Origin: Arenicella sp.
Lineage (GTDB): Bacteria; Pseudomonadota; Gammaproteobacteria; Arenicellales; Arenicellaceae
Assembly: GCA_023301745.1 (NCBI GenBank)
Contig: JALZVW010000021.1
Coordinates: 1-47,194, forward strand
Direction: 5' to 3'
Length of the DNA stretch: 47,194 nt
Shown: positions 14,752 through 18,180 of the stretch, in pieces
How positions within the stretch are numbered: the first letter of the stretch is position 1
Layout of the letters: each line of letters starts with the position of its first letter
Position numbers and translations under genes: made by a program
Notes under the pieces: generated by a model
The model's input: only the letters and a program-made list of their open reading frames with translations
Told to the model about the DNA's origin: nothing
Database searches by the model: none

Positions 14752-15348
14752 CTACAGCCAATTCCTGTCAATAATGGCCAATAATTCATTTACCTCTCGC
14801 AAGGGTAAGCCGACCACATTACTATAACTACCTTGAATAAGCTTAACCCAAGCTGAAGCATAACCTTGAATTGCATACGCACCAGCCTTGTCGCTTGGCT
14901 CCCCGGTCGCCCAGTATCGTTGCATTTGCTCAACGGTTATACGACCAAATTCAACCTCAGTAATGCCTAGCTTTACATTCGCTCGGCCCTCGTGAAGCAA
15001 ACAAACCGCCGTCATCACTTGGTGTCTATTGGCGCTTAAATTGTGCCATGTCTGCTGGGCATTTTCATAGCTACTTGGCTTGCCGTACACGACATCACCT
15101 TGCACAACAATAGTATCGGCGGCCAGAATCGCCACACCAGCTTGCGCTAAATCACTATCGGCCGCCCGTGCCTTATCTCGGGCTAGCCGAGTTACAAAGT
15201 CTTCGGGGGCTTCGCTCTCTTTACGGCTTTCGTCCGTGTCAGTGACGTGCACGGTGAATGATACGCCCATTTCTTCAAGCATTTCTTTGCGTCGAGGCGA
15301 GCCCGAGGCTAAAATTAAATCCGTTTTGGGTAAGGCTAGGTCAGACAA
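14752..15348 (-). CDS. maf: Maf/YhdE nucleotide pyrophosphatase
   Basis: Maf proteins hydrolyse nucleoside triphosphates, often modified or non-canonical ones; the YhdE branch acts on dTTP and UTP. The 198-residue protein has the family signature SGSPRRKEML at 15-24 and the catalytic ADTIVV with D78. Placement before rng argues for the YhdE type rather than YceF. The start is TTG at 15348: there is no in-frame ATG before the SPRR motif, and AGGAG stands seven bases upstream, inside the last codons of rlmH. The two genes are two bases apart, so maf translation probably depends on rlmH. Confidence 0.93.
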   Translation of the reverse strand: MSDLALPKTDLILASGSPRRKEMLEEMGVSFTVHVTDTDESRKESEAPEDFVTRLARDKARAADSDLAQAGVAILAADTIVVQGDVVYGKPSSYENAQQTWHNLSANRHQVMTAVCLLHEGRANVKLGITEVEFGRITVEQMQRYWATGEPSDKAGAYAIQGYASAWVKLIQGSYSNVVGLPLREVNELLAIIDRNWL

Positions 15349-15350
15349 AA

Positions 15351-15824
15351 CTAATCTCCTCGATGATAAGGTAAGTTGGCATTAATGCTCCACGCGCGAT
15401 AGAGCTGCTCAGCGAGCATGACACGAACCACAGGGTGCGCGAAGGTCATGGCCGAAAGAGACCACTTTAGTGGCACCTGCGATAAATAATTTGGATCAAT
15501 GCCTTCAGGGCCACCAATTAAAATGGCCACATCTTGACTTTCATCAATCCAGTTTTGTAAATTTTTTGCAAGCGCATCAGTGTCGATATGCTTTCCCTTA
15601 CGATCTAAGGCAATGACCAGCGTTCCCTTAGGAATAGCCGCTTGTAACGCTTGAGCTTCATCGCGCAAAATTCGCACAGTATCGGCATTTTTACCACGTT
15701 TCTTAGCGGCTATCTCGACAAGCTCAAGCTGGCACAAGGCAGGCATGCGCTGAGCATATTCCTTATAACCCTGCTCTACCCAGTGCGGCATACGCGTTCC
15801 AACGGCGATCAACTTAATACGCAT
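15351..15824 (-). CDS. rlmH: 23S rRNA pseudouridine1915 N3-methyltransferase
   Basis: SPOUT-class methyltransferase that methylates the pseudouridine at position 1915 in helix 69 of 23S rRNA using S-adenosylmethionine. The 157 residues match the family length. It starts MRIKLIAVG and has the knot-forming GGPEG segment near residue 104 and the C-terminal HPVVRVMLAEQLYRAW and PYHRGD, all typical of RlmH. It lies 62 bases after the nadD/rsfS gene, the usual neighbour, and two bases before maf. In many relatives mrdA and rodA come next; here they do not. Confidence 0.96.
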   Translation of the reverse strand: MRIKLIAVGTRMPHWVEQGYKEYAQRMPALCQLELVEIAAKKRGKNADTVRILRDEAQALQAAIPKGTLVIALDRKGKHIDTDALAKNLQNWIDESQDVAILIGGPEGIDPNYLSQVPLKWSLSAMTFAHPVVRVMLAEQLYRAWSINANLPYHRGD

Positions 15825-15886: not shown

Positions 15887-16918
15887 TTATGCGCTATCTT
15901 GCTCTTCACGATGTTTTTTCATCAATGCGCGCACATCTTCGTCCCAGAGTTTTTCTAGATCGTAATACTCACGCACTTCTGGGCGCATTACATGCAAGAC
16001 AACGTCACCGAAGTCGACTAACACCCATTCACCAACATCGGCGCCGTCTTCGTTAAGCGGGATCACCCCTTGCTTACGAAGGCTGGTCGACGCTGAACGT
16101 GCGAGTGCTTTCACGTGCGTATCGGAAGTACCACTGGCCACCACCATGTAATCGGCGAAGTCAGAGATATCTGTAATGTCAATTGTACGAATGTCCACGC
16201 CTTTGATGTCTTCGAGGGCGTCGACCACTTGGTCTTTTATTTGTTCAGGTTTCATAGGGCGTATTTTATACAGTTGCTGCTCCTGAATATAGGAGAAAAC
16301 AGCTTTGGGTAAGAATTCTTTGCTTAATAAGTTGTCGCTTCTCGAATCGGCTAGTTCAGCGCGTAATTCGGTGGACGAGATGGCAAATTCGGTATGCTCA
16401 AACACCCAGATCTTGCCTCCACTCTTTTTTACCGCTTGATTTTGCAATTCTAGCGGGTCGCAAACTAGTCGCTGCTGCAATTCATGCGGCAGATTCAGTT
16501 GATAGCCAGGGCGGTTCATAACCACCCAGTTAACTTTATCAACCAACTCATCGTAGCGATGCCAGTGCGGCAAACTCAATAAACTATCACCACCAACAAC
16601 GACGCAAATCTGGGCCTCTGGGTAGTTAAGCTGAAACTCGTCGACAGTATCGATCGTATAGGAGGTTGCTTGACGTTTTATTTCGCTGTCATCCGCGACG
16701 TAGTTAGCTCCTTGGGCAAGCGCTAGGCTCATCATCGTAAAACGATGCTCGGCGCTGGCGCTGATTCGTTCTTTATGAGGCGGCCGCGCGCTCAAGACCC
16801 AATGTACGGCATCAAAGGGCATCTGCTCGTTGAGCATTTGAATAGCATTTAGATGCCCCAAATGAATCGGATCAAAGGTGCCGCCAAAAAGCCCAATCAA
16901 CCTAGCTGGCTTGGACAT
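15887..16918 (-). CDS. nadD-rsfS: NadD-RsfS fusion: NaMN adenylyltransferase and ribosomal silencing factor
   Basis: One frame of 343 codons carries two proteins that are normally separate. Residues 1-219 are NadD, which joins nicotinate mononucleotide and ATP to give deamido-NAD: GGTFDPIHLGH at 12-22 and ISSTELR at 180-186 are the nucleotidyltransferase motifs. Residues 222-343 are RsfS (YbeB), which binds ribosomal protein uL14 and blocks subunit joining in starved cells: DFADYMVVASGTSDTH and GEWVLVDFGDVVLHVM are typical. Only three residues (Ile-Arg-Pro) separate YIQEQQLYK, a normal NadD end, from the Met that usually starts RsfS. That Met (16255) has no ribosome site at normal distance; AGGAG is about 27 bases upstream. 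I took the ATG at 16918 over a TTG just before it. It follows proA by 8 bases. Confidence 0.93.
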   Translation of the reverse strand: MSKPARLIGLFGGTFDPIHLGHLNAIQMLNEQMPFDAVHWVLSARPPHKERISASAEHRFTMMSLALAQGANYVADDSEIKRQATSYTIDTVDEFQLNYPEAQICVVVGGDSLLSLPHWHRYDELVDKVNWVVMNRPGYQLNLPHELQQRLVCDPLELQNQAVKKSGGKIWVFEHTEFAISSTELRAELADSRSDNLLSKEFLPKAVFSYIQEQQLYKIRPMKPEQIKDQVVDALEDIKGVDIRTIDITDISDFADYMVVASGTSDTHVKALARSASTSLRKQGVIPLNEDGADVGEWVLVDFGDVVLHVMRPEVREYYDLEKLWDEDVRALMKKHREEQDSA

Positions 16919-16926
16919 CAAACAAC

Positions 16927-18180
16927 CTAAGCACGAATATGGCCATCACCATAAACAATGTATTTTTGCGATGTTAAACCCTCTAAACCAACCGGTCCGC
17001 GAGCATGCAGCTTATCGGTACTAATGCCTATTTCAGCACCTAAACCATACTCGAAACCATCAGCAAAACGAGTTGAGGCGTTGATAATCACTGAGCTTGA
17101 ATCAACTTGTTGAATGAATTTCCGACTGGTCGTGTAATTCTCAGTAACAATACTCTCAGTATGGTCAGAGCTGTGGTCAGAAATATGCTGAACCGCTTGA
17201 TCAAAGCCATCGACCACTTTAATCGCCAAAATTGGCGCCAAGTACTCAGTATCCCAATCTTCGTCGGTCGCGGCATGCATAGCAACAATCCCACGGGCGC
17301 GCTCACAACCTCTAAGCTCTACCCCTTTTTCGCTATACGCTTGGCACAGTCGCGGCAAAACATCATTGGCGACATTTTGATGCACTAATAAGGTTTCCAT
17401 TGCGTTGCATACGCCATAGCGGTGCGTTTTGGCATTCAGCGCAATATCAAAGGCTTTTTGCTGATCAGCGTCTTTATCAATAAAAACATGACAAATACCG
17501 TCCAAGTGCTTAATCACCGGCACACTAGCCTCTCGGCTAATACGCTCGATCAAACCTTTGCCGCCACGCGGGATAATTACATCCACATACTCAGGCATAG
17601 TAATTAATTCGCCAACCGCCGCGCGATCAGTGATTTCAATGACTTGCACTGCATCGGCAGGCAAGCCGACTTCGGCTAAGCCCTGCGCAATACACTTAGC
17701 CACCGCCATATTCGAATGAATTGCTTCAGACCCACCACGTAATATAGTGGCATTACCAGACTTCAAACACAGTATCGCCGCATCGACAGTAACGTTCGGG
17801 CGAGACTCGTAGATTATGCCAATAACGCCTAAAGGAACACGCATCTTACCGACCTGAATTCCTGATGGGCGATAGCTCATATCACTCACTTCACCGATAG
17901 GGTCAGGCAGCGCTGCTACTTGCCGGCAACCCTCAGCCATCGCGAAAATGCCGGCCTCGCCCAACTCCAAGCGGTCAAGCAATGCCGCCGCTAAACCATT
18001 CTCTTTGCCGGCTACTAAATCTTTTTGGTTAGCCTTGATTAACTCATCAACAGCATTCTCAAGCTTGCTGGCGATCGCCAATAGGGCGGCGTCTTTATCC
18101 CCACGACTGGCGCTAGCCATTGCACGGCTCGCTGCGCGAGCGCGCTGACCTAAGGATTGCATGTATTGTTTTACGTTCAA
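16927..18180 (-). CDS. proA: Gamma-glutamyl phosphate reductase
   Basis: ProA reduces gamma-glutamyl phosphate with NADPH to glutamate-5-semialdehyde, the second step of proline synthesis. It is 417 residues, as in E. coli. The aldehyde-dehydrogenase fold is recognised by [16 protein letters not shown], the catalytic C258 in [10 protein letters not shown], and the C-terminal [20 protein letters not shown]. It lies between holA (53 bases) and the nadD fusion, as in Pseudomonas. proB is not in the window. No feature suggests separate regulation. Confidence 0.97.

Follow-up and report, generated by a model that had tools for sequence, protein, structure and literature searches.

A nadD-rsfS fusion gene of Arenicella with a conserved internal start that probably also gives free RsfS

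Results

NadD and RsfS are encoded in one stop-free frame

The stretch of Arenicella sp. DNA that was analysed (47,194 nt, hereafter the window) carries on its minus strand a gene in which the coding regions of NadD and RsfS follow each other, with these parts:

15887..16918, minus strand: fused nadD-rsfS ORF, 343 aa plus stop (ORF listing; Pfam and NCBIfam matches)
16265..16906, minus strand: NadD domain (nicotinate-nucleotide adenylyltransferase), residues 5-218 (NF000839 match)
16256..16264, minus strand: linker Ile-Arg-Pro, residues 219-221 (translation)
15890..16255, minus strand: RsfS domain, residues 222-343 (Pfam and NCBIfam matches)

A sequence-only reading of this DNA had described a single open frame through NadD and RsfS, with no stop codon between the domains and with an Ile-Arg-Pro linker in front of an internal Met codon (16253-16255). 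The open frame was confirmed in the ORF listing, and the linker and the Met codon were found in the translation. With NadD first and RsfS behind it in one stop-free frame, the product belongs to the NadD-YbeB/RsfS fusions. Translation from the ATG at 16918 gives 343 aa, and an in-frame TTG one codon upstream (16919-16921) gives an alternative ORF of 344 aa (15887-16921). The neighbours on the same strand are proA (16927-18180) and rlmH (15351-15824), both named from their translations.

The nucleotidyltransferase motifs of NadD are GGTFDPxHxGH and ISSTxxR. Both are present in the fused protein (GGTFDPIHLGH at residues 12-22, ISSTELR at 180-186), and residues G12-P17, H19, G21, H22, S181, S182 and R186 are invariant across 15 fused proteins. 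The Pfam model CTP_transf_like (PF01467) matched residues 10-187 with 85.4 bits, and two NadD equivalog models identified the domain as NadD, TIGR00482 with 158.6 bits (cut-off 112.45) and NF000839 with 190.2 bits (cut-off 187); the remaining NadD models in the NCBIfam match list were all under their cut-offs. In the genome of the window (G000), only one protein matched TIGR00482 above the cut-off, the other match, of 27 bits, being CoaD. PF01467 matched two further proteins of the genome, this CoaD and one of RfaE domain II type, and no second NadD was found in this approximately 95%-complete genome.

The C-terminal part was identified as RsfS by PF02410 (residues 230-325, 106.2 bits, cut-off 21.6) and by TIGR00090 (residues 228-325, 112.2 bits, cut-off 56.9), and one RsfS match was found in the genome. 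The internal Met222 aligns with residue 1 of the solved RsfS chain 9q40_9, and residues 6-106 of chain 6sj6_9 align with residues 227-327 of the fused protein, at equal length. RsfS acts on uL14, and the uL14-contact residues of Staphylococcus aureus RsfS are given in a passage of PMC7125091 as Glu70, Asp81 and Tyr98. If the alignment is gapless and the numbering alike, these correspond to Asp291, Asp302 and Tyr319, two identical residues and one Glu-to-Asp exchange. In a structure model both domains fold (mean pLDDT 90.7, pTM 0.72). As 27 single-NadD rows of the input alignment were partly misaligned over the RsfS half, nothing was drawn from the modelled domain placement.

The fusion is rare but recurrent

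The same fusion was sought in related genomes and was present, beyond chance, in 15 of the 17 assessable genomes of Arenicella, the unfused members being G003 and G008; 18 genomes were searched, and G009 was left out since its gene is cut by a contig end. Across the order, 106 of 109 genomes had an RsfS match, and 20 of these 106 are fused. The screen required a frame of at least 300 aa around RsfS, the minimum able to hold both domains, and all 20 candidates proved to have both domains in one frame. Besides the 15 in the genus of the window, they comprise G018 in the next genus of the family, G025 and G035 (family f6), G031 (f12) and G061 (f2). G019 and G020, which represent the other genus of this family, do not have the fusion.

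In a sample of the class, an RsfS match was found in 351 of 370 genomes, and outside the order none of 14 candidates among the matches listed was fused, including five with frames of at least 300 aa. Only L135 was fused among 18 long-frame candidates (at least 224 aa around RsfS) from the class and order searches. A fused-alignment query against a phylum sample of 397 genomes gave at least four stop-free matches across both domains; those among the matches listed were the genome of the window itself, G794, G586 and G496. The last three have both domains in one frame, the NadD model matching only positions 4-135 in G496. In a set of 123 loci that have both domains, 22 carry the fusion, two of them (L039 and L046) representing one contig, with identity over 4552 bases. 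The fused loci of this set outside the order come from MAGs of Bdellovibrionales (L081) and Lentisphaerae (L107). In the latter, an 870-aa frame has NadD-RsfS at its C-terminal end, and NadD begins only at residue 505.

A common occurrence of the fusion in Gammaproteobacteria was also considered and rejected: many tblastn matches cover both genes in one segment, but few are one ORF. Both domains were present in 79 of 80 tblastn loci, and one stop-free ORF only in L046, L081 and L107. The NadD-RsfS fusion is therefore rare but recurrent, and nadD and rsfS are usually neighbours yet separate genes, as had been supposed from the sequence.

Age and direction of change

A tree of NadD, RsfS and RlmH from 48 loci requires six changes of state between fused and unfused (6-6 over the bootstrap trees), at least four of which are forced by well supported branches. 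It groups Arenicella with the fused G018 and has G003 and G008, both unfused, branching within the genus at weakly supported nodes. Holding the fused Arenicella together was not rejected with three genes (p-AU 0.388) and was weakly rejected with ten (p-AU 0.026), the latter on a quick tree in which long branches meet at this point and G008 fills only 31% of the columns. A single origin with G003 and G008 as clean losses is thus one possible history.

In G003, G019 and G020, read base by base, nadD and rsfS overlap as ATGA in different frames, so that from that state a frame change would be needed besides the change of the stop. The sequence-only reading had proposed that one base change at the NadD stop created the fusion and that this may be recent. 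Neither proposal held. The fusion spans most of the genus, which has two unfused members, and reaches the next one, and these three nearby unfused relatives overlap out of frame; a recent one-base origin is ruled out by this spread and this overlap. The fusion is an old trait of most of the genus, in an order with several changes of state. Unfused G008 differs: its two genes share a frame and are separated by three stops. The upstream stretch TATAAAAT of the fused species is still present there (L030 / L157, about 467-600), and from its sequence G008 is perhaps a fusion that split again.

The internal Met codon is conserved at a variable joint

Three features were placed at the joint:

16253..16255, minus strand: internal ATG, probable second start for free RsfS of 122 aa (conservation and low structure)
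16235..16300, minus strand: strongest synonymous constraint (alignment columns -36 to -24 and +1 to +6; codons -15 to +6 in the window)
16263..16291, minus strand: two A+T boxes, TATATT and TAAAAT, 17 nt apart (conservation; putative function)

The joint in the window reads Leu-Tyr-Lys-Ile-Arg-Pro-Met. The internal Met is kept in all 15 fused Arenicella proteins; in the two columns just before it the commonest residue occurs in only 3/15, and the residue after it agrees in 8/15. From the NadD Leu-Tyr to the Met there are 4 residues in 11 of these species and 11, 11, 20 and 25 in the others. In unfused G003 and G008, the homologous ATG is the presumed start of rsfS.

Other fusions vary at this point. 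Three that are unrelated (L107, L145 and L146) have an ATG near the start of RsfS with Shine-Dalgarno matches of -9.5, -6.0 and -8.7 kcal/mol, respectively, and L135, L015 and L032 keep their ATGs with weaker matches. The junction lacks an ATG in L037, L038, L081 and L144, the last of which has a GTG with a Shine-Dalgarno match of -6.2. Free RsfS from an ATG at the junction is therefore not always needed.

Synonymous constraint is strongest around the joint

Constraint was measured as synonymous codon agreement, corrected for amino acid and pair distance, in blocks of ten alignment columns. The highest block (columns -33 to -24, corresponding in the window to codons about -12 to -3 relative to the Met) reached 0.296, compared to a 95% point of 0.147 in permutations, of which 0 out of 20000 were as high. 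All the best blocks listed in two analyses (12 and 8) lie in columns -39 to +6 of the internal Met. By way of example, Tyr is encoded by TAT in 15/15, one Ile by ATT in 13/15 and another by ATA in 10/10, the share of ATA among Ile codons being 17-23%; elsewhere at this divergence, synonymous codons agree in only 23-65%, depending on the amino acid.

As a control, eight neighbouring genes (10 to 15 species each) were analysed, and only 2 of 3182 blocks reached at least 0.235, both in maf. A second comparison was made with g5, a genus of the order in which nadD and rsfS are unfused and overlap. Its best nadD block was 0.17 (11 of 20 sequences kept, near copies removed), and its best rsfS block was 0.209, at the far end of the gene and with only 8 of 20 sequences kept; values near 0.2 can therefore arise elsewhere. 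The stretch in maf (14812-14832, minus strand) has two blocks of 0.27 in columns 176-187, with DNA like GGTAGTTATAGNAATGTNGT, to which even the sister genus has a similar sequence. With rng downstream of it, the stretch may, by its sequence, be a promoter or another cis signal.

An overlapping frame as the cause of the constraint was not supported. Among the five alternative frames, stops fall within the constrained stretch in 15/15 species for three frames, in 13/15 for one and in 7/15 for the last, an antisense frame, so that no overlapping gene common to the set explains the constraint. The antisense frame, open in 8/15 and broken in 7, holds in the window a 65-aa ORF (16115-16312, plus strand) that crosses the joint and is, from the sequence, probably due to chance. 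No known RNA element was found at the joint, the only match being rne5, outside the joint and far under its gathering score.

Start signals upstream of the internal ATG

The absence of a ribosome site before the internal Met, also noted in the sequence-only reading, was borne out by a best duplex of +0.9 kcal/mol compared to a gene median of -1.5. A Shine-Dalgarno sequence better than the gene median is absent before the internal ATG in 13/15 species, the exceptions being L024 and L033, and L026 equals the median. In all 15 species, the mRNA has less structure near this ATG than the gene has on average (mean z +1.87).

Of the two A+T boxes, TATAT[T/A] is kept in 15/15 fused Arenicella and does not resemble a -35 element. 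The second box is TAAAAT in the window, where it resembles a -10 element and is separated from the ATG by 7 nt. At the same distance of 17 nt from the first box, 12/15 have a hexamer that retains this A at position 2 and this T at position 6, and in 11/15 the hexamer position ends 7 nt before the ATG; a -10-like hexamer at that spacing is absent in 3/15 species. A consensus scan of the gene found no promoter of sigma-70 type (-35/-10 at 16-18 nt). Genome-wide, the pattern of two boxes was found at three places (0 in a reversed control), one of them inside the gyrB coding sequence, and it is not specific to promoters. As the boxes partly follow from the Lys-Ile codons, they are weak evidence for a promoter, and an internal promoter upstream of the internal ATG is a tentative, speculative proposal.

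Discussion

One gene, probably with two products

The nadD-rsfS gene of Arenicella is probably one gene with two products, a NadD-RsfS fusion and free RsfS. Ribosomes from the nadD start would read into rsfS without a stop, giving NadD with a C-terminal RsfS, and because the frame is free of stops, every NadD made must carry RsfS unless it is cleaved. The second start would be the old rsfS AUG at 16255, whose conservation suggests a free RsfS of 122 aa. Since this start is conserved, its surroundings are under codon constraint and the mRNA there lacks structure, the AUG is probably used, and a 14-kDa RsfS from it is the likelier outcome. Initiation would occur without Shine-Dalgarno on A+U-rich, unstructured mRNA, and the speculative internal promoter could possibly help. 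From what is described for the family, both free and fused RsfS would attach to uL14 of the 50S subunit and prevent the subunits from joining. Some NadD might also reach the 50S subunit through the fusion, be it as a by-product or as a feature in its own right. Of the sequence-only reading, the real fusion, the usual separateness of the two neighbours and the missing ribosome site stand, and its recency and one-base origin do not.

It is quite possible, if somewhat less than probable, that both products are made and that the fused tail is simply tolerated, as harmless read-through with free RsfS as the acting form and no coupling of NAD to the ribosome. This overlaps with the two-product explanation and differs from it in function. 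It would fit the lack of the fusion in 2 of the 17 assessable genomes of the genus, and also a neutral simulation on a tree of 4-fold sites, which expects a linker stop in only 1.4-2.0 of 17 tips (P of two or fewer stops 0.68-0.81), the tree being near saturation (length 25.5) and differing in topology from the protein trees. With so low an expectation the absence of linker stops is not significant, and the stop-free linker is ruled out as proof of selection. Against mere tolerance, linkers of 4, 11, 20 and 25 residues all keep the frame, although the definition of fused requires this. When G008, which is in frame, and G003, which is not, are both counted, about four of five length changes keep the frame (P about 0.045, a weak value from a hand count). 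Selection to keep the fused frame is thus weakly supported.

A committed bifunctional enzyme, made only at full length, with the Met and the codon bias as ancestral leftovers or serving the protein, is unlikely. The open frame and the lack of Shine-Dalgarno before the internal ATG agree with it, as does the existence of fusions that lack the ATG (L037 and L038 with a Gly-rich linker, the Bdellovibrionales MAG L081, and G794, which is L144). However, the Met is invariant amid variable flanks, and the needs of the protein cannot explain the synonymous constraint. The chance that a sequencing or assembly error removed a stop codon is negligible: the assembly is a draft of 191 contigs, but 14 further assemblies from the genus have the fused frame too, and their linkers differ in length and sequence. 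Returning to the two-product explanation, it could be extended, in a form that we hold to be improbable, to a NadD anchored through RsfS partly on free 50S subunits, with the internal start, with or without its own promoter, setting the amount of unanchored RsfS. If so, NAD supply would be linked to the shutdown of ribosomes at the onset of starvation through the proportion in which the long and the short product are made.

Comparison with known systems

Wolinella belongs to a different phylum from Arenicella. The NadD-YbeB(RsfS) fusion as a kind is already known in print from that genus: a table entry of 2011 lists the NadD-YbeB fusion of Wolinella succinogenes, for which no pyrophosphatase or NAD-cleavage activity was detected (PMC3223725). 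Compared by description only, it resembles the Arenicella fusion in having the same two domains, named in the same order; unlike our reading of Arenicella, the passage says nothing of an internal start (PMC3223725). A passage of PMC5462765 states that ybeB often adjoins nadD and that the two seem to make up one fusion protein of two domains, a general statement without sequence or distribution and, in that passage, without an internal start. The fusions found in print are thus brief mentions, and no internal rsfS start was found among the open-licence papers listed. What is new here is the joint, with an internal start kept in the most constrained stretch of the gene. The ordinary nadD-rsfS pairs (G003, G019, G020 and genus g5) have the same order, with the rsfS ATG on the end of nadD, but in different frames and with an overlap, compared to the one frame of the Arenicella fusion.

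The lysC gene is described in a passage of PMC11955535 as having an internal in-frame start for a short product, LysC-beta, which is called putative and has support from ribosome profiling. Like nadD-rsfS, it is one gene with a long and a short product in the same frame (PMC11955535). The nadD-rsfS gene differs in that its start was deduced from conservation and its short product would be a whole former gene. As for RsfS itself, YbeB/RsfA is described as a ribosomal silencing factor in PMC3400551, with nadD unmentioned in the main text. The mitochondrial homologue MALSU1 is placed on uL14 with L0R8F8 and mt-ACP in a passage of PMC8316566; there it acts in ribosome assembly, with partners that are individual proteins rather than an enzyme fused to it (PMC8316566). 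In the 234-residue PDB chain 5ool_u of MALSU1, residue 95 is the first of the RsfS part.

Annotation as a single protein would hide a second product. The Arenicella gene is a useful natural test case for a link between NAD supply and ribosome shutdown, and the two forms of fusion, with the hidden start kept (Arenicella) and without it (the Gly-linker family f6), amount to a natural experiment that asks if the silencing of ribosomes requires free RsfS and if NAD synthesis benefits from a place on the ribosome. The family f6 fusions (L037:4323-5333 and L038:2258-3268), with their Gly-rich linker and no internal ATG, would by the looks of their sequence be committed fusions.
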